Assembly (NCBI RefSeq): GCF_017471675.1
Contig: NZ_JAFUSK010000021.1
Coordinates: 17,364 to 81,363, forward strand
Direction of reading: 5' to 3'
DNA length: 64,000 nt
Source of the DNA: Pseudobutyrivibrio sp.
GTDB taxonomy: Bacteria > Bacillota > Clostridia > Lachnospirales > Lachnospiraceae
Part shown: positions 48,508-57,669 of the stretch, in pieces
Numbering within the stretch: position 1 is the first letter of the stretch
How the letters are laid out: each line of letters opens with the position of its first letter
Program-made: the position numbers and the translations under genes
Notes under the pieces: model-generated
The model's input: only the letters and a program-made list of their open reading frames with translations
Told to the model about the DNA's origin: nothing
The model's database searches: none

Positions 48508-48613
48508 TTAAATTGTTTCTAAATACTTTGTCATAGACTCAATTGTAGGATGTGCAAGAATCATATTAATGGATACATTTTTCCCTGTACGCTTACTAAT
48601 TTCCTGCTGCAAC
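48508..48613 (-). pseudogene. Detached 3' end of the NRPS gene (PCP C-terminus)
   Basis: Read on the minus strand from 48613 this segment encodes QEISKRTGKNVSINMILAHP then TIESMTKYLETI and a TAA stop: helices III-IV of a carrier domain. It is separated from the rest of its gene by the element at 48614-51362. Joining base 51371 to base 48613 (one copy of GCTGCAAC) gives ...GGTSLQYFRLQQEISKRTGK... in frame. It has no start of its own and cannot be translated as a useful product. Confidence 0.93.
48606..48613. repeat. Target site duplication, left copy
   Basis: GCTGCAAC directly precedes the left terminal repeat of the element. The same eight bases follow the right terminal repeat at 51363-51370. 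Confidence 0.95.
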
Positions 48614-48641
48614 GAGCCTTTGAAAAAATCTCTGTAAATTT
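48614..48641 (+). repeat. Left terminal inverted repeat (IRL)
   Basis: 28 bp, GAGCCTTTGAAAAAATCTCT then GTAAATTT; matches the right end at 23 of 28 positions. The transposase start lies 58 bp further in. Confidence 0.88.
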
Positions 48642-48699
48642 AATATAAGACTTGGGTCTTCTATGATAAAATTCTTAATTATCAAGGAGGCCCATTTTT

Positions 48700-49944
48700 A
48701 TGGCAAACAAGAGACGCGACGTTTATAAGGCAAAACCAATGACAGAAGGAAAGAAGGCTGTAATCCAAGGATTGCTCAATGAGTACGATATCCAGACAGC
48801 TGAGGACATTCAGGATGCTCTCAAGGATCTTCTTTCAGGGACAATTCAATCCATGCTCGAATCTGAAATGAATGAGCATCTAGGCTACGAGAAGTATGCT
48901 CGTGATGATGAGCCTAATTACCGCAATGGAACAAAGCCTAAGACTGTTAGGAGTAAATATGGTGAGTTTGAAGTTGATGTACCACAAGACCGAAATAGCA
49001 CATTTGAGCCAGCCATCGTAAAGAAAAGACAGAAAGACATTTCTGGTATCGAAGAACAGGTCATTGCTATGTATGCCAAAGGAATGACAACGACTCAGAT
49101 TTCAGAAATGATTGAATCAATCTATGGATTTGAAATCAGCGAAGGCTTAGTTTCTGATATCACTGATAAGCTAATGCCACAGATTGAAGATTGGCAAAAT
49201 CGCCCTTTATCGGCAGTATATCCAATCATTTTCATTGATGCTATTCATTTCTCAGTACGTAATGATGGAATTGTAAGCAAACTTGCAGCTTATGTTGTTC
49301 TCGGAATCAACGAGGATGGAATGAAGGAAGTTCTTTCCATCGAAGTTGGTGAAAATGAAAGTAGTAAGTATTGGCTAGGTGTTCTAAATAGCCTTAAAAA
49401 CCGTGGAGTTCAGGATATCTTAATCCTTTGCTCAGATGGTCTTACTGGCTTAAAAGAAGCCATCCAAGCGGCTTTCCCTAACACAGAACATCAGCGCTGC
49501 ATTGTTCACATGGTTAGAAATACCCTTAAGTATGTCGCTAACAAAGACATGAAGGCTTTTGCTAAAGACCTTAAGACAATCTACACTGCGCCAGATGAGA
49601 AGACAGCTCTCAAGCGTTTAGACGAAGTGACCAAGAAATGGGAGCCACTTTATCCTCATGCTATGAATCGTTGGCGTGATAACTGGGATGTAATTACTCC
49701 AATTTTCAAGTTCTCTATGGATGTTAGAACCGCATTTTATACCACTAATGCCATCGAGAGCTTAAATTCATGCTACCGCAGATTAAACAAGCAAAGAAGC
49801 GTATTCCCAAGCTCACAGGCTCTGATGAAAGCTTTATATTTGGCAACCTTTGAGGCTACCAAGAAATGGACAATGCCAATCAGAAATTGGGGCAAAGTTC
49901 GCGGAGAACTTTCAATCATGTATTCTGGCAGACTTTCAGATTAA
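48700..49944 (+). CDS. IS256-family transposase
   Basis: 414 residues, the usual length, apparently intact. The DDE triad is D180 (IIFIDAIHF), D246 (LCSDGLTG) and E353 (NAIESLNS), with the N-terminal MLESEMNEHLGYEKY and PQDRNSTFEPAIVKK typical of the family (mutator-type). AAGGAGG precedes the ATG. It is transcribed toward the passenger genes, which are on the opposite strand, with a terminator between. Confidence 0.95.
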   Translation: MANKRRDVYKAKPMTEGKKAVIQGLLNEYDIQTAEDIQDALKDLLSGTIQSMLESEMNEHLGYEKYARDDEPNYRNGTKPKTVRSKYGEFEVDVPQDRNSTFEPAIVKKRQKDISGIEEQVIAMYAKGMTTTQISEMIESIYGFEISEGLVSDITDKLMPQIEDWQNRPLSAVYPIIFIDAIHFSVRNDGIVSKLAAYVVLGINEDGMKEVLSIEVGENESSKYWLGVLNSLKNRGVQDILILCSDGLTGLKEAIQAAFPNTEHQRCIVHMVRNTLKYVANKDMKAFAKDLKTIYTAPDEKTALKRLDEVTKKWEPLYPHAMNRWRDNWDVITPIFKFSMDVRTAFYTTNAIESLNSCYRRLNKQRSVFPSSQALMKALYLATFEATKKWTMPIRNWGKVRGELSIMYSGRLSD

Positions 49945-49951
49945 TAAACAA

Positions 49952-49980
49952 AACCACTATCTCATTATGGGATAGTGGTT
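49952..49980 (+). terminator. Terminator of the transposase gene
   Basis: AACCACTATC (49952-49961), loop, GATAGTGGTT (49971-49980), then ATTTGTG. It separates the transposase from the oppositely oriented passenger genes. Confidence 0.7.
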
Positions 49981-50001
49981 ATTTGTGTAAACTGGAAGTT
50001 G

Positions 50002-50523
50002 TTAATCCAAAACATCTTTTATAGAATCCTCATAGCTTTCGGTGATCAGAGTAATCTTTTCTCCATTAGACTTGTAACCATCTATGACCTGGTGATTGTC
50101 TTGCTTCAGCTGTTCGACTGTGCAATAAGAATCATCTAGTCTTGTTTCAATATCTGAACCATGTGACTTTATCTCTTCAAAATGCGTGTCTATATATTCA
50201 TCTGACATAGCAAGACAGATGAACCTTATCGACTGAAGATACTGCTCATCAAAACTGTCTCTCCAATCAAAAGGTATATAACAGCCCTCAACGATAAGGT
50301 TTTGCTGGTTTTCAATCACGGTTTTCATGATCTCTCGTACAATTGGCCACAGATACCCTGTCAGAGACTCGTCGTCTTCCGGTGTCAATACCGTATTGCC
50401 ACTGCGGATCAGGCCCATTTTCAGGTGATCAATCGACAGATATGGATATTTGTATTTTTCGAGCATCTTCTGAGCCAGAAGCGTTTTTCCAGTATGAGAT
50501 GCACCCGTAATCAGTATGATCAT
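50002..50523 (-). CDS. Small P-loop kinase-like passenger gene
   Basis: 173 residues. Walker A GASHTGKTLL (about 7-16), then YLSIDHLKMGLIRSG and NLIVEGCYIPFDWRDSF, a pattern like adenylate/zeta-toxin-type or 2-phosphoglycerate-kinase-type P-loop kinases. The substrate is unknown; phosphorylation of an antibiotic is possible given its partner. It starts within the stop of the acetyltransferase gene (ATGA overlap), so the two passengers are one operon. Confidence 0.7.
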   Translation of the reverse strand: MIILITGASHTGKTLLAQKMLEKYKYPYLSIDHLKMGLIRSGNTVLTPEDDESLTGYLWPIVREIMKTVIENQQNLIVEGCYIPFDWRDSFDEQYLQSIRFICLAMSDEYIDTHFEEIKSHGSDIETRLDDSYCTVEQLKQDNHQVIDGYKSNGEKITLITESYEDSIKDVLD

Positions 50524-51158
50524 AGTCTTGCCTCGATTTCATTCCTGACCTTCTCCAATTCACTGCAGGTCAGGATTGGAATCAGACTGTTTATTTCTTC
50601 AATGCTTTTATCCCACCACTTGAATTTGAGCAGCAATCCGATAAGATCATCATCAAAGCGTTTCCTCAAGGGTTTTGCAGGATTTCCAACAACGATAGTA
50701 TAAGGATCGACATCACTTCCGACAATGCTGTTTGCTCCAATGATTGCTCCGTCACCGATATGAACGCCAGGAAGAACCACCGCATTTTGCCCGATCCACA
50801 CGTCATTGCCAATCACAGTATTTCCTTTGAATGGCATTTCAGACGGATCGGGAGTGTTCATTTCCCATCCTTCAAGCGTATAAAACGGGAAGGTTGAGAC
50901 GGCGTTCATCTGGTGATTAGCATCATTCATCACAAACTCGACACCTGCTGCGATCTGACAGAACTTGCCGATGATAAGCTTATCCCTGCTCCAGGGATAA
51001 AAGTTTGTTACATGACTCTCAAATTCTGAGTCTGCAATGTAGGTAAAATCCCCGACGATGATATTCGGATTTGTAATGGTTGGTTTCACATATATCTCTT
51101 TGTCATATCCTGCGACCGGATGGATCACATTTGGATCTGGGATTTTCCCATTATTCAT
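50520..51158 (-). CDS. Vat/CatB-like xenobiotic acetyltransferase (passenger)
   Basis: 212 residues of the left-handed beta-helix XAT family. The layout follows streptogramin A acetyltransferases (Vat) and CatB: YVKPTITNPNIIVGDFTYI, LIIGKFCQIAAGVEFVMNDANHQMNAVST with the catalytic His at 82, then IGNDVWIGQNAVVLPGVHIGDGAIIGANS hexapeptide turns and VVGNPAKPLRKRFD. Drug inactivation is a family-based prediction only; some members modify sugars. GAGGTGACCAACT precedes the ATG. Confidence 0.82.
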   Translation of the reverse strand: MNNGKIPDPNVIHPVAGYDKEIYVKPTITNPNIIVGDFTYIADSEFESHVTNFYPWSRDKLIIGKFCQIAAGVEFVMNDANHQMNAVSTFPFYTLEGWEMNTPDPSEMPFKGNTVIGNDVWIGQNAVVLPGVHIGDGAIIGANSIVGSDVDPYTIVVGNPAKPLRKRFDDDLIGLLLKFKWWDKSIEEINSLIPILTCSELEKVRNEIEARL

Positions 51159-51243
51159 AGTTGGTCACCTCGTCAAATCTCGATTTATCGATTTGTTATG
51201 CTAAAGATATTACTACACCACAAATTAAAAATCCAAGTTTTTA

Positions 51244-51272
51244 TTGACTTACAGTATACAGAACTGTATAGT
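51244..51272 (+). promoter_or_regulatory. Outward-facing promoter at the element's right end
   Basis: TTGACT (51244-51249), 17 bp, TATAGT (51267-51272) on the plus strand, pointing out of the element into the antisense of the NRPS gene. IS256 elements are known for outward promoters. Confidence 0.55.
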
Positions 51273-51274
51273 CT

Positions 51275-51305
51275 AAAAAAGGATGTAGAGTATCTAGCTA
51301 CACCC
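51275..51305 (-). terminator. Terminator at the element's right end
   Basis: Minus strand: GGGTGTAG (51298-51305), loop, CTACATCC (51281-51288), then TTTTTT. It would stop NRPS transcripts about 20 bp after the new stop codon and shield the passenger genes. Confidence 0.65.
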
Positions 51306-51321
51306 TCACAAATCTAAATTA

Positions 51322-54300
51322 TCATAGAAGTTCCATATTTACAGAGAAAATTTCAAAGTCTCGCTGCAACCTGAAATATTGTAAAGATGTACCACCTAAC
51401 TCTTGAAATCCTTTATTGCCAGGAACTGTATCCATTTCCAATATTTTTCCCCAGGCACTTTCAACCTGATTATATATAGTTTTATTGGAATTAATATCAT
51501 TCGTAATACCATGCTTTGTGCGCCTTCCATATGAAATGGTACGTTTTGCTTTTAATTGTCCCAATTTACTACGGTCAATTTTTCCGTTTGAATTCAGCGG
51601 AATATCTTTTAAAGCAATAAACTCATGTGGCAAATAACTCTCAGGAAGAAACTCTCTCATCTTTGTTCTAAAAAATCCACTACTATCACTTGGATTGTCA
51701 GATTGTGACACATAATACATGATATATTTCTTTTTACCATCACATTCTTCAATATTAAAAGCACATTGCGATGCTTTACTGATTTTTTGAAAAACAGACT
51801 CTATTTCCTCTACTTCAACTCTCTGTCCGTTAATCTTAATCTGAAAATCTTCTCTTCCTAAAAATTCATACTCATTATTATCATTTAATATAGCCACATC
51901 TCCAGTTCTATACAGTTTCTCTCCAAAAATATCAGTGGTATCAATAATATTAGACTCTTTTTCACTCTTTCCAACATATCCATCAAAGGTTCCGATTCCA
52001 CCTATATGCAGAACTCCTTTCTCCCCTCTTTGACATTTTCTACCTTCATTATTTAGGAGATATACTATTTTGTTTGGGATTGGTTTTCCTATTGGAATCC
52101 TACCGCAATCAATATCTTTTTTAGTAACTTCATGATATAAGCTTACACAACTACATTCTGCCGGGCCATACACATTATAAAATCTAGCATTACAATTTGG
52201 CGAATTAAACCAACTAAGAAACATTTCACACGAAAGCTTTTCACCTCCACAAACCATATACGTTATAGATTCAAAATCAGAATAATTATTCTTCGATGCC
52301 TCTATTACCATTTCCTTAAGCAAACTAGGCACTGTGGCAGCATGAGTTATTTGTTCTTTAGATATAACATTAAGAATATATGGTATATCATACAATTCAT
52401 TTTTTACTAGACACAAACTTGCCCCACAACTTAGAGCCGCAAATAAATGCTTTACAGATCCATCAAATCCAAAATTATTTAACAAAATTAGTTTTGATTC
52501 CTGCGTAATGTTCATTTCTTTGATATACCATTTTATCAAATTAACAATACCCGCTTGTTGAATTGGAACCCCTTTTGGATTACCTGTGGTCCCTGAAGTA
52601 TTCATAATATACGCTAATTGTGTTGACTCTGTACATTTATTATCTAACAATGAAATAGACGGAATAAACTTCTCATAAGTATGCAAAGGGAATATAGTAA
52701 CATTCTCATATTCACACGATTCATCCGTTATATAATATGTCACACCACAATTTGTAAGTATCAATTTTGTCTTACCATATGGAAGTGAGCAATCTATCGG
52801 TACATATACCCCTCCAGCAAAAAGAATTGCGTATATCCATATTATTGTCTCATTGTTCTGATTACATCTTATGGCAATATTATCGCCTTTACGAACTCCA
52901 GACTTAACAAGTATTTCCGCGCATCTCAAAATATTATAGTATAACTCAGCATATGATAATTCACCTTCACTATCTTTTACTGCAATTGCTTGCGGATTGT
53001 TAGCACAAGAAGCCAAAAACATGTCAACTAAGGTATTTGGGCTAGAATTCTTTTCAGCCACGGCTTCATCCTCTCGATTTATAACATCCACAAATTCATT
53101 CAATATTTTTTCTAGCTCAGCATTATCATATCTTCCGCAACCTGAAGATAATCTACAATAATACCCCTCCTCACTTTTTTCTATAAGCATTTGTAAATCA
53201 GAATTACTATTTTCCTGCACATTCATAACATAGTGCATTTCAACAAAATCATTATCAATTGTGTTATCAATCATGTTAAAAATGAATCCATTATGAATAG
53301 CCTTGTAGTTTTCAAATAAGTTTTCATCTCTAACCTTTTTATAATATGAACCATGCATCTGTTCATATGCTTTTAACATTTTTTCTTTTAATAAATCTAT
53401 CTCATTTGCGCTTGTTACGAATATTTTGTCTAAAAACAAACCTACTGTTTTCTCAAAATCCCCGATTGCTCGATCCGAAGCTGGTACAGATACATATACT
53501 TTAGTCTTGTACTTTTCTTCTAAAACTTTCATATATGACCATAACAATGTAGTAAAAAGTGAAGTATTACACTGTTTTGCCTTCTTTTTCGCTTTGGAAA
53601 TAGTTTCGTTAGCCAGCGCCTTGCAGCATACAGAAGCATCTTTATTTTGTTTTCCATTTCCGTATTCACATAAAGAATTATTGTACGCTCTTAATTCATC
53701 AATACTTAAATCCTTATCAGTTTCTGCCTCGAGCTGTTTCAATGAAACATACTCATCAAAACTATGCGTTTCATACTCTACTTCTTTACTGTAATACTCC
53801 CTCAATATTTGATTAAATATAAGCCTAAATGATTGTTCATCTGCCAAAATATGATGAATAGTTAATAATAATCTTGCCTTAGTATCTGATTGTTTTATGA
53901 TTGTCACACGATAAAGAGGCCCCGTTGACAGATTCATTTTTTCTTCAGAAATAATCCTTTGAAAATCTCTTATACTATCTTCATTAACTATTTCTACATA
54001 CTGTATGCAACAAGCACTTGCTGATTTTCTTCGTAACGGCAAGCCCTCCTCATTTTGTATAAATACATTTTGTAAAGTAGGATTATTTAAATAAACTTTC
54101 TCTACTGCCGTTCTAAGTTTTTCAAAATCTATCTTGCCATTATTCTTATCTAACAAATCCATATATGCTGTAATTACATATCTAGAATTGTTGTTTATAT
54201 TATCATATACCCATATGTCTTCCTGTAACCTTGTTAGATCACAAGTAGATTCCTCTTTAATTTCAGAAATAACGCATTGAGATTTATTTTTTTCTTCTTT

Positions 54301-57300
54301 AATGCAGCTAAATATTTCCTCCAAATTATTAATATTCATTATATGATAAATTGATAGTTCAACTCCGTATACTTTTCTTAGCTCGGCTATCAATTTAATT
54401 GCAGTAATGGAGTTTCCTCCAATGGCGTAAAAATTAGATTTTTCATCTATATCATTTCTACCAAAAACCTTATAACATACTTGCATGAATCCTTCGATGT
54501 CACTTTGGAATTTATTATCTTCACCTTCATCAGTAACATCTATACTCATGTTATTCAATGCATTTTTATCTATTTTTCCATTATTAGTTAATGGCATTTC
54601 ATCTATTTTTTGTATAACTCCAGGTATCATGTAAGCAGGCAAAGAATTTTCTATCTCTTTGCGTACTTTCTGCTCCTCAAGTTCATCACCTGTTGTATAA
54701 AATGACTTAAGAATCTGCTTTTCTCTATCGTATAAAACTACGCACTTTTGAATTCCTGCAATGCTTGCGATTTCATTTTCAATAGCCGACAGTTCAATTC
54801 TCTTTCCATTAATTTTAACTTGTGAATCTGTTCTACCAAGGAAAATAATTTCTCCATCAGCATTGTACATTCCTCTATCGCCTGTGTTGTATATTCTTTT
54901 CCCATTCAAGCTAAGGAATTTTTTTTCTGTTTCTTCGGGATTTCCTGCATAGCACTCAGCTACACATATACCACTTACATACATTGTTCCTGGTACTTGG
55001 ACCGGACATATTTCATAATTCTCATTTAAAATATAATACGAAGCTGTAGGGACTGGAATTCCATATGGAATAACGTCTTTACGAATATCCTCTTCAGTTA
55101 CTACATGGAAGATATTCCAAAGAGTGGTCTCCGATGGTCCGCCAACACTAACCACTTTAGCATTGTCAAAATATTTTTTTATTTCCTTAACCAGTTCTGT
55201 TTTTACCCAATCTCCGCCTAAGAATATGTATCTAACACTATCTAATCCACAGGTATCCGATAAACCATACGACACATACATATCCATAAAAGCAGGCACG
55301 GAATTCCATATTGTTATAGAATTTTTTTCCATCAATTCCTTCCAATGCTTTGGATCCTTAGCCTTTGAATCTGTAGGAACAACTATTCCGCCGCCCGCTA
55401 TTGTCATTCCAAAAACATCATATAGTGACATATCATGGCAAAAACTAGTTATGGCAATAGCTCTATCCTCAGAAGTCACATTAAATTTTTCATTAGTATA
55501 TAAAAGACATTCTGCAAAACCATCATTTTTTATCCTTATACTTTTAGGTAAACCTGTGGTTCCTGATGTATTGATAGTATATATAATGTCTTTTCCATCT
55601 GCTGCATTATATATCTCTCCATTTGTTCCCTGTACATTGTCCAAACTACTAGGAATCAAAACTATTACACCATCATATATCTCTTTTATTTCATCGTAAT
55701 GACTTTGATCTGTATAAATGGCTTTGACATTATTATTCTTTATAGAATTAATAAGCTGTTTTTTAGGAAGCAAAGTATCAAATGGCAAGAATACTATATT
55801 AGCTAACGCACATGCTAGTTCAGCCAATATTCCCTCTATTCCCTTTGCTGTATAAATTCCTATGGTATCTCTTGCTTGTATGCCATTTGCCAATGCATCT
55901 GCATTAATATGATTTATTAACTTAAATGTATCTTCATAGCTATAGCTACCGTTTTCTGTAATGATATGTATTCTTCCGCCATTACTATGAAAACTATTTC
56001 TTAATAAATCACCTACAGTATTCTTACTATTTATTTCATCATTTCCGATACAAGTTTCGATTGTATTTAACAATTTATCTGGCAAACTTAATTCAGTTTT
56101 TACTGCCCAATTATTACTATCTCTAAGAATGTCACGAATTCCACAAATAAATATATCCGCAATTTCTTCTGCAACTTCTTGTGGAATAATTTCCTCAACA
56201 CAATCCATTGTGAAAATTACGTCATCCTGTCTGTGCATTAATACCGCATCAATCCAAACTTGGCTAGTATGTGTCTTTGTATATGTTTTTACAATCTCCT
56301 GCGATTTTCTATATGGCACATCCAATGTACTCGTAAATACTACTGGAGCATTTATCTTATGCCCTTTCTTCTTTTGAAGCTGACTTAACAATTCAAGACC
56401 AGAGTACATACTGTGATCTAATAATTGCAAAACAAGTTTATTATTTCGAATTATTAAATCTTTAATACTTTCATCTTTTCTGTTATCAAAATCAAACAGC
56501 ATAAAGTTTGAACATTCGCCTACCATATCCCATATATCATTGAAAATCGGTGGGCGTAAAGCTATTGGTACATTTAATAGAAAATGCTGATTCTGACTAC
56601 ATCTTGCAATAGATTTTCCATAAATAGTTAATAAGATAGAAAATGCTGAAACATCCCATTCCTTAGCTAACTTTACCAAATCCTGATATTCGTTTTTACT
56701 AAAGATTCTCAAGACTTGTCTAGTATGAGTTTCTAAAACATCATCTGGATTCTTAATAAAAGGCAGTTGTGGATTGTCAGGCATCCGATCTGCCCAATCC
56801 ATCCAATACTCATAGCTACTGTTATATACATCAGTCTTCTTCATATTCTCCAGATATTCGCAATATTTTCGATAACTACTATCAATATTTCTAATATCTG
56901 CATGCGGATTTGAATAATAATAATCCAAATCCTTTACTATATTTTCATGACTCCAACCATCCACCACTAATCCATCATGGCAAAAATGAATAATAGTATT
57001 GTCTTCACTTACTTTAGTTACTTCAAAATATACTAAAGGTGGCGTATCAATTTTGAACGTATGATTAAATACTTCAGTTCGCTTATACGATAAATATTTT
57101 TCTTTTTGTTCTTTAGACATATTCTGTATATCAGTATATGGAACAGTTACCTCAACTGGCTCCTTTACCAATTCTTGTGTTCCATCTTCAGAAAAACGAT
57201 ATCTAAGCACCTCATGAGTTTGAATTAATTTATTGACTGCTTTCTCAAATCTTTCATGATCATAATCTTTTACTTCCATCTCGCAATAAGCATGTGTAGC

Positions 57301-57633
57301 CTCGCCACCAAGACCAATATCTTTTTTTCTTCCTAAAAGGTAAGCAAGTTGCATATCCTTTAGTTTAAAACTGTCCATCTCTACCTGTTTTTTATTTTTT
57401 CGCGCTGGCTTACTAGCAGCCTTTGCGTCGATGCTATCAATAAATTCACTCATTTTATCATACTTATAGAAGTCGCTAACTTTTACTCGAATTCTAGTAT
57501 CTTTATAGATTTTCATCTGAATCTGTGTAGCTAGAATTGATTGTCCCCCTAAATCAACAAAACTTCTATCAAGTGTGACGTTTTCATCCAATCCTAATAT
57601 TGCCCTTATAATTCTTTCTATATTCTCTTTCAT
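51322..57633 (-). CDS. NRPS: carrier-Cy-A-PCP-C-A-PCP(truncated)
   Basis: 2103 residues as it stands. In order: N-terminal carrier (DLGGQSILA, S32), heterocyclisation domain (KDMQLAYLLGR; D220-xxxx-D225-xx-S228; FTSTLD; SQVWID), A1 (TINTSGTTGLPKS, VGGPSETTLW, YNTGDRG), PCP (IGGNSITA), C domain (HHILADEQS), A2 (IMNTSGTTGNPKG, NVYGPAECS, YRTGDV) and a last PCP (LGGTSLQ). A1 has features of Cys-type A domains that follow Cy (HDMSLYDVFG, TIWNSVPAFM). The last 13 residues (RDFEIFSVNMELL) come from the inserted element and replace about 32 native ones. GAGGA before the ATG at 57633 fixes the start; the frame opens earlier at 57648. No TE domain. Confidence 0.9.
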   Translation of the reverse strand: MKENIERIIRAILGLDENVTLDRSFVDLGGQSILATQIQMKIYKDTRIRVKVSDFYKYDKMSEFIDSIDAKAASKPARKNKKQVEMDSFKLKDMQLAYLLGRKKDIGLGGEATHAYCEMEVKDYDHERFEKAVNKLIQTHEVLRYRFSEDGTQELVKEPVEVTVPYTDIQNMSKEQKEKYLSYKRTEVFNHTFKIDTPPLVYFEVTKVSEDNTIIHFCHDGLVVDGWSHENIVKDLDYYYSNPHADIRNIDSSYRKYCEYLENMKKTDVYNSSYEYWMDWADRMPDNPQLPFIKNPDDVLETHTRQVLRIFSKNEYQDLVKLAKEWDVSAFSILLTIYGKSIARCSQNQHFLLNVPIALRPPIFNDIWDMVGECSNFMLFDFDNRKDESIKDLIIRNNKLVLQLLDHSMYSGLELLSQLQKKKGHKINAPVVFTSTLDVPYRKSQEIVKTYTKTHTSQVWIDAVLMHRQDDVIFTMDCVEEIIPQEVAEEIADIFICGIRDILRDSNNWAVKTELSLPDKLLNTIETCIGNDEINSKNTVGDLLRNSFHSNGGRIHIITENGSYSYEDTFKLINHINADALANGIQARDTIGIYTAKGIEGILAELACALANIVFLPFDTLLPKKQLINSIKNNNVKAIYTDQSHYDEIKEIYDGVIVLIPSSLDNVQGTNGEIYNAADGKDIIYTINTSGTTGLPKSIRIKNDGFAECLLYTNEKFNVTSEDRAIAITSFCHDMSLYDVFGMTIAGGGIVVPTDSKAKDPKHWKELMEKNSITIWNSVPAFMDMYVSYGLSDTCGLDSVRYIFLGGDWVKTELVKEIKKYFDNAKVVSVGGPSETTLWNIFHVVTEEDIRKDVIPYGIPVPTASYYILNENYEICPVQVPGTMYVSGICVAECYAGNPEETEKKFLSLNGKRIYNTGDRGMYNADGEIIFLGRTDSQVKINGKRIELSAIENEIASIAGIQKCVVLYDREKQILKSFYTTGDELEEQKVRKEIENSLPAYMIPGVIQKIDEMPLTNNGKIDKNALNNMSIDVTDEGEDNKFQSDIEGFMQVCYKVFGRNDIDEKSNFYAIGGNSITAIKLIAELRKVYGVELSIYHIMNINNLEEIFSCIKEEKNKSQCVISEIKEESTCDLTRLQEDIWVYDNINNNSRYVITAYMDLLDKNNGKIDFEKLRTAVEKVYLNNPTLQNVFIQNEEGLPLRRKSASACCIQYVEIVNEDSIRDFQRIISEEKMNLSTGPLYRVTIIKQSDTKARLLLTIHHILADEQSFRLIFNQILREYYSKEVEYETHSFDEYVSLKQLEAETDKDLSIDELRAYNNSLCEYGNGKQNKDASVCCKALANETISKAKKKAKQCNTSLFTTLLWSYMKVLEEKYKTKVYVSVPASDRAIGDFEKTVGLFLDKIFVTSANEIDLLKEKMLKAYEQMHGSYYKKVRDENLFENYKAIHNGFIFNMIDNTIDNDFVEMHYVMNVQENSNSDLQMLIEKSEEGYYCRLSSGCGRYDNAELEKILNEFVDVINREDEAVAEKNSSPNTLVDMFLASCANNPQAIAVKDSEGELSYAELYYNILRCAEILVKSGVRKGDNIAIRCNQNNETIIWIYAILFAGGVYVPIDCSLPYGKTKLILTNCGVTYYITDESCEYENVTIFPLHTYEKFIPSISLLDNKCTESTQLAYIMNTSGTTGNPKGVPIQQAGIVNLIKWYIKEMNITQESKLILLNNFGFDGSVKHLFAALSCGASLCLVKNELYDIPYILNVISKEQITHAATVPSLLKEMVIEASKNNYSDFESITYMVCGGEKLSCEMFLSWFNSPNCNARFYNVYGPAECSCVSLYHEVTKKDIDCGRIPIGKPIPNKIVYLLNNEGRKCQRGEKGVLHIGGIGTFDGYVGKSEKESNIIDTTDIFGEKLYRTGDVAILNDNNEYEFLGREDFQIKINGQRVEVEEIESVFQKISKASQCAFNIEECDGKKKYIMYYVSQSDNPSDSSGFFRTKMREFLPESYLPHEFIALKDIPLNSNGKIDRSKLGQLKAKRTISYGRRTKHGITNDINSNKTIYNQVESAWGKILEMDTVPGNKGFQELGGTSLQYFRLQRDFEIFSVNMELL
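51335..51362 (-). repeat. Right terminal inverted repeat (IRR)
   Basis: Reading inward on the minus strand: GAGACTTTGAAATTTTCTCT then GTAAATAT. It supplies the last codons and, a little further in, the stop codon of the truncated NRPS. Confidence 0.88.
51363..51370. repeat. Target site duplication, right copy
   Basis: GCTGCAAC, identical to 48606-48613. Confidence 0.95.
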
Positions 57634-57669
57634 AACAATCCTCAACAATACTGATTTTAATTTCCAATA

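Follow-up and report, generated by a model that had tools for sequence, protein, structure and literature searches.

An IS256-family transposon with a Vat-like acetyltransferase and a small kinase as cargo in Pseudobutyrivibrio

Introduction

Can an insertion sequence (IS) of the IS256 family carry unrelated genes between its ends and move with them as one piece? The question is raised by a locus of Pseudobutyrivibrio sp. (Lachnospiraceae) that lies in 64,000 nucleotides of contig NZ_JAFUSK010000021.1 (assembly GCF_017471675.1, positions 17,364 to 81,363 of the forward strand), hereafter the window. An original prediction, made from the letters of the DNA, saw here an IS256-type transposon with a Vat-like acetyltransferase gene and a kinase gene, framed by a perfect target duplication. 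We conclude that the locus very probably holds an IS256-family (bacterial Mutator) transposon with a Vat-like acetyltransferase and a small P-loop kinase in a cargo slot, moved whole by its own transposase. Nor is this locus a freak in carrying cargo: a sister element has another gene in the slot at two loci, each with a duplication of its own.

Results

Boundaries and the interrupted gene

The element is bounded by two 28-bp inverted ends, at 48614..48641 (plus strand) and 51335..51362 (minus strand), which agree at 23 of 28 positions (22 of 26) and enclose 2749 bp. Recomputation gave the predicted 23/28; the second-best match to the left end anywhere in the window is 19/28, and 30 single-base shuffles reach at most 20. 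The sequence GCTGCAAC stands on both flanks (48606..48613 and 51363..51370) and the identity spans exactly 8 bp, not 9, so the proposed target duplication is indeed perfect. IS256-family elements have terminal inverted repeats of 18-39 bp and duplications of 8-9 bp (PMC3942029), and this element falls within both ranges. The predicted interval, 48606-51370, locates the unit but includes the duplications; the element proper is 48614-51362. A subterminal repeat, CTTCTATGATAA, was seen by eye at 48658..48669 (plus strand), with an inverted copy near the right end (51319..51330, minus strand) that is kept in the right-end modules described below.

The element interrupts a nonribosomal peptide synthetase (NRPS) gene. 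As it stands, the open reading frame (ORF) runs into 13 foreign residues and then a stop. When the unit and one duplication copy are removed in silico, the frame continues via ELGGTSLQYFRLQQEISKRTG through the 3' remainder of the gene (48508..48605, minus strand) to a stop at 48508-48510. Excision had been predicted to restore a codon-perfect peptidyl carrier protein; the frame is restored to the stop, and the piece is presumably a carrier domain, by its ELGGTS motif. The NRPS-like ORF, 51322-57648 (2108 aa), is broken near its end by the element and has only distant matches in the genus.

An intact transposase

The transposase gene (48700..49944, plus strand, 414 aa) is intact by profile and alignment. 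The protein scores 420 bits against NF033543, the IS256 equivalog profile (cut-off 150), and 384 bits against PF00872. D180, D246 and E353, which we take to be the DDE catalytic triad, are invariant in 20 aligned rows. Compared with its closest sister, in genome G003, nonsynonymous divergence (dN) is 0.008 and synonymous divergence (dS) 0.62, which indicates that the enzyme has been kept working. Transposase matches occur in 21 of 61 genomes (its own and 60 relatives), many of them fragments. Matches in the plasmid collection are at most 76% identical, the top ones lying on two Selenomonas ruminantium plasmids with ends that were not fixed.

Sisters with different cargo

If the two passenger genes belong to a mobile unit, do related elements carry genes in the same place? 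The closest relative, in the same-genus genome G003, is present in two copies of 2204 and 2203 bp with a transposase 98% identical to that in the window. Both copies have exact 8-bp duplications, ACTGTAAA and TTACAGGA, and their left terminal repeats match that of the window at 27/28. The DNA of the G003 and window elements is 91% identical over the left 1391 bp and 87% identical over the right 179 bp; between these arms only short, chance-level alignments were found. The G003 slot holds one gene, with a weak FlxA resemblance below the Pfam cut-off and a frameshift in one of the two copies, and neither G003 locus has a Vat or kinase match. The plasmid collection has no near match to the G003 element DNA, the only element DNA used as query there.

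Three further relatives carry cargo within exact duplications. The G316 element (L170 2067-9084, 7018 bp) has two-component and ABC genes on the transposase strand, which Pfam assigns to a LytTR response regulator, a GHKL kinase and an ABC ATPase, together with two ORFs without assignment. The G348 element (2361 bp) carries a HAD hydrolase (Pfam), and an element on viral contig L224 (2040 bp) carries two small ORFs with no Pfam match. Movement together with the passengers is read from the duplication at the window locus and those at the two G003 loci. Together with the other three cargo-bearing relatives, the G003 sister strengthens the original claim that the 2749-bp unit moved as one piece with its two passengers, which we judge the best reading.

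How common is cargo among these elements? A boundary finder was run on 76 loci, a subset of all matches that is centred on the window and not random, and returned 79 transposase places. A place was counted as resolved if a near-full-length transposase lay between family-like ends that agree at 15/26 or more and are flanked by an exact 8-bp duplication; for the four transposases below 60% identity, the family score gave way to the demand that the right end lie no more than 400 bp from the transposase. By this measure 36 of the 79 places were resolved, 30 as plain IS and 6 as cargo-bearing (the window, two in G003, G316, G348 and L224); the pairs L220/L221 and L255/L267 possibly each represent one element counted twice. 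The right ends of the 30 plain elements lie 142-341 bp after the transposase. Such passenger-free relatives could have told against the original prediction had their ends differed; since the end family is shared, they reveal a plain version of the element and no contradiction. All seven elements resolved in a wider, order-level sample were plain.

Some places stand outside this count. The transposases of L280 and L393 are in two pieces and were taken as nested insertions, and a 3560-bp boundary in G196 (L268) was rejected because its 'ends' are unlike the family. The 7.2-kb element of G244 (L279), in which Pfam finds a GNAT gene and inspection by eye suggests MBL-, ATP-grasp- and transporter-like ORFs, was left out on account of an interrupted transposase and a 7/8 duplication. 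In one G033 copy (L003 2793-2846) the left terminal repeat is duplicated, 26 bp apart.

A transposase tree was built from 27 rows, 7 with cargo (including the interrupted G244) and 20 plain (including two with 7/8 duplications). On this tree, 4 gains or losses must be assumed for the cargo label (5-95% bootstrap range 4-4).

Cargo genes

The two passenger genes lie on the minus strand, overlap by 4 bp and converge on the transposase gene. The upstream one (50520..51158) encodes a Vat-like hexapeptide (xenobiotic) acetyltransferase of 212 aa, identified by profile and PDB matches. Like the Vat streptogramin A acetyltransferases, it has virginiamycin A and streptogramin A acetyltransferases as its top PDB matches, and its MNDANHQM aligns with MNGANHRM of 4hur. 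It differs from them in being about 50% identical to Vat(E) and in scoring 251.9 bits against NF000311, the NCBI Vat profile with a cut-off of 300. The prediction of a Vat-like, antibiotic-inactivating cargo thus stands as to the likeness (252 bits), but the cut-off is missed and a role in resistance is therefore only inferred. The acetyltransferase could plausibly inactivate streptogramins, and the cargo may serve to modify xenobiotics.

The downstream gene (50002..50523) encodes a P-loop small-molecule kinase-like protein of 173 aa, found by ORF, profile and fold searches. Its model has a predicted local distance difference test (pLDDT) score of 89 and a fold of the adenylate/gluconate/shikimate kinase type. 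In the fold search no single substrate stands out, the tunicamycin-resistance protein 2vli being one of many tied rows.

Vat-like matches in the plasmid collection are at most 71% identical. One of 71% lies on a Treponema saccharophilum plasmid (NZ_AP025289.1, 406067-406690), as a Vat-like frame where no gene is annotated. In the phage collection 11 records have partial matches, some of them Streptococcus suis phages with a Vat annotation.

The same cargo outside the element

Does this gene pair exist without the transposon? The kinase has at least 587 relatives, from which we kept the best 80 loci, mostly labelled as rumen and gut metagenome assemblies. Among these best 80, a Vat gene lies directly upstream of the kinase gene in 26. 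None of the 80 stretches matches the transposase, and none of those with a Vat match has an end-like sequence (at least 21/28), many stretches being cut by contig ends. Contig L031 (G448) and the window share 99% identity over 788 bp; the match runs from the edge of the contig, within Vat, to element position 1376, beyond which the two diverge. G455 matches element positions 1376-2573 at 83%, and G453 matches 1517-2576 at 84%. Vat-kinase loci without the element thus share its stretch from position 1376 up to 2573-2576. As the right-end modules of differently loaded elements start at 2560-2572, we place the cargo unit at about 49989..51186 (minus strand), with a right limit uncertain by about 15 bp.

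The kinase gene also follows CAT-, APH-, DHFR-, GNAT-, NUDIX- or MBL-fold-like genes, among 10 upstream ORFs chosen by eye. Across L031-L110 (for example L086, L102, L075 and L101), a kinase-like gene stands beside CAT, APH, DHFR, GNAT or Vat in assemblies labelled with several phyla.

Anatomy of the slot

On its transposase side the slot begins with a hairpin between the convergent transposase and cargo genes (49952..49980), which is terminator-like in the plus direction and folds on both strands (z below -5 on each). On the other side lies a right-end module (51184..51362), recognized by DNA comparison as common to elements with different cargo, which starts near the same point whatever the cargo (element positions 2560, 2570 and 2572). 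Read inward from the right end, it contains the terminal repeat, CTTCTATGATAA and an inward-facing hairpin with a T-run (51273..51307, minus strand) that folding predicts to be terminator-like against read-in. This inward hairpin has -11.4 kcal/mol and z -2.4, with 2 of 200 shuffles as good; a terminator scan omits it because its loop is 9 and the scan's loop limit is 8. An outward-facing promoter-like site, TTGACT-N17-TATAGT (51244..51272, plus strand, 10/12), belongs to a set of 11 such sites, where chance alone would give 8.3. A scan of 7 cargo-bearing elements for internal end-like sequences found none, and none lies directly downstream of the transposase in the window.

Two further readings of the slot were dropped. 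An element-borne cargo promoter has by-eye boxes at 7/12, and across the right ends of the window element, G003, G364 and two more, the best sigma-70 match scores no higher than shuffles do; the cargo edges show no integron attC core by eye. Palindromes of the AAATCGGRATTTG type lie at the right-end/cargo edge in the window (51174-51186), L168 (4009-4021), L279 (7370-7382) and L170 (8907-8922). Such palindromes also precede ribosome-binding sites, and the ACAAATTCCAGTTTGT form follows kinase stops in unrelated contigs.

Incomplete forms and solo right ends

The right-end module was matched in 9 of 29 genomes of the genus, at 17 places. A partner left end was sought for 17 right ends from the genus and family, and for 14 of them no candidate turned up. 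The candidates were L205, without a duplication; L183, with an exact 8-bp match and a poor, A-rich end (16/28); and L186, which is the form found in G021. This G021 form is 799 bp long and has both ends, a GNAT-like ORF and a transposase remnant only, with no duplication. In G364 the module is 97% identical over 190 bp and a different ORF lies at about the place of Vat, where the contig ends. In G018 the left and right ends are on separate contigs with a common 8-bp flank, GCTAAATA, noted by eye. Modules without a detectable left end were listed at L205-L208 and L210-L214 (same genus), L169, L172, L175, L177 and L184; by eye, solo modules often lie just upstream of a GNAT-, DUF262- or chemotaxis-like gene.

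Discussion

Our results point to an element that behaves as a small transposon and, over evolutionary time, has its cargo slot filled anew. In the mechanism that we propose, the slot between the post-transposase hairpin and the conserved right-end module would hold the two-gene passenger, and the transposase would act on both 28-bp ends and carry the 2749-bp unit whole, its landing in the NRPS gene end leaving the 8-bp duplication. A copy-out/paste-in route through a circle may be expected from what is known of the family; an IS256 circular transposition intermediate is reported in work cited by PMC7986276 and PMC3942029. The inward hairpin may insulate the cargo, which could have been acquired by recombination into the slot.

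Several observations weigh against this account. No second copy of the exact 2749-bp unit was found, and the source genome (92 contigs) has one transposase copy. Because of this single copy, the mobility of the unit is read from its own duplication and not from a second site. No natural empty site was found in 29 same-genus genomes (its own included), where matches to the NRPS end are only 24-37% identical; with no close homologue of the NRPS end in the genus, only the in-silico join was possible. L031, the clearest outside locus of the Vat-kinase cargo, stops inside Vat at its contig edge. Moreover, 43 of the 79 transposase places are without fixed ends (40 unresolved, 3 without room) and could shift the share of cargo-bearing elements. 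Finally, well-supported branches of the tree force only 2 cargo changes, and the label is clustered (4 changes against a shuffle mean of 6.4, with 9 of 500 shuffles as low), so the origins of cargo are not shown to be many.

Could the locus instead hold a plain IS256 beside pre-existing Vat and kinase genes, with a right 'end' and a duplication that are coincidental or a solo end? Solo right ends are common, so a lone right end proves little. However, an exact 8-bp duplication surrounds the whole unit, the NRPS frame is restored, sisters hold other cargo in the same kind of ends, and no end-like sequence lies just past the transposase; we regard a chance arrangement as extremely improbable. 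It is very unlikely, too, that the cargo was captured by read-through to an alternative end lying outside the original right one. Insertion sequences commonly acquire neighbouring genes by using an outer end, but the lack of internal ends in the 7 cargo elements speaks against it, and by end scores their outer right ends fall into one family with the right ends of the plain elements.

How, then, would the slot be filled? IS256-type elements are bacterial cousins of Mutator, and some plant Mutator-type elements carry fragments of host genes; for these Pack-MULEs, relatives of IS256, capture by recombination or gap-repair template switching has been discussed. A process of this kind, acting between a copy of the IS and DNA of host or mobile origin, stands, in our judgement, at an even chance. 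It would fit the nearly constant module start across different cargo (2560, 2570 and 2572), the existence of the Vat-kinase cargo outside the element (99% over 788 bp) and the lack of internal ends, but no intermediate was seen, and the Pack-MULE parallel is an analogy, the paper checked treating Pack-MULEs for insertion preference only. Alternatively, small cassettes might enter at a short palindromic site (AAATCGGRATTTG / ACAAATTCCAGTTTGT) at the slot edges. By eye, the elements of the window, G364, G316 and G244 have site-like palindromes where the right-end module meets the cargo; at the opposite slot edge they were seen in G003 and, with 3 mismatches, in the window. ACAAATTCCAGTTTGT occurs 22 times (up to 2 mismatches; some of the loci overlap) in the 1.29 Mb of loci examined and 0 times after shuffling, and at 38 places against 4 for the control in 9 genomes, 6 of which were picked because their locus held the motif. 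Yet AAATCGGRATTTG hardly exceeds its reversed control (20 places against 13 in 41 genomes), the motifs resemble ordinary leader hairpins before ribosome-binding sites, and no recombinase could be linked to them, so that entry of cassettes at these sites seems unlikely. It is distinctly unlikely that the right-end module is a standing cargo platform, with an insulating hairpin and a palindromic junction that exchanges single-gene cassettes, many of them drug- or metabolite-modifying; this is less probable because the by-eye cargo promoter in the module is no better than chance. If it were true, gut bacteria would have in this IS256 lineage a minimal vehicle for gene capture.

Whatever the route of capture, the refilled-transposon reading has consequences. 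Sisters with different genes in one slot make the cargo loading of such elements directly testable, and the element would be a very small vehicle able to carry resistance-like genes in gut or rumen bacteria.

How does the element compare with known systems? It shares with the IS256 family (Mutator-type, p-MULT 1) the transposase family, the positions of the acidic triad, inverted ends, an 8-bp duplication and a single transposase ORF, and differs in carrying passengers, so that it is not a transposase-only IS in the strict sense. It is a passenger-bearing ('tIS') variant of the family. A survey that resolved 109 p-MULT 1 (IS256) elements gives the plain IS organisation only (PMC3942029), and no IS256-family passenger element was found in the literature searched, which mostly excludes subscription journals; the original remark that such forms are little described agrees with this. 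Tn4001-like composite transposons are flanked by IS256. As in these, an IS256 transposase would move a resistance-type gene, but the window element has one transposase and one pair of ends, not two flanking IS. The term tIS denotes IS with passenger genes and is used for several IS families, one named member belonging to IS6 (PMC7986276, PMC3129680). Like a tIS, the window element has IS-like ends, a transposase and unrelated passenger genes inside one end pair; unlike the tIS of these sources, which are defined from other families, it is an IS256 whose cargo differs between close sisters. Mobile insertion cassettes (MICs) are treated, with solo ends, in PMC3129680. The 799-bp G021 form resembles a MIC in having two ends, a GNAT-like gene and only a remnant of the transposase, although it has no duplication, whereas the window element encodes its own transposase.

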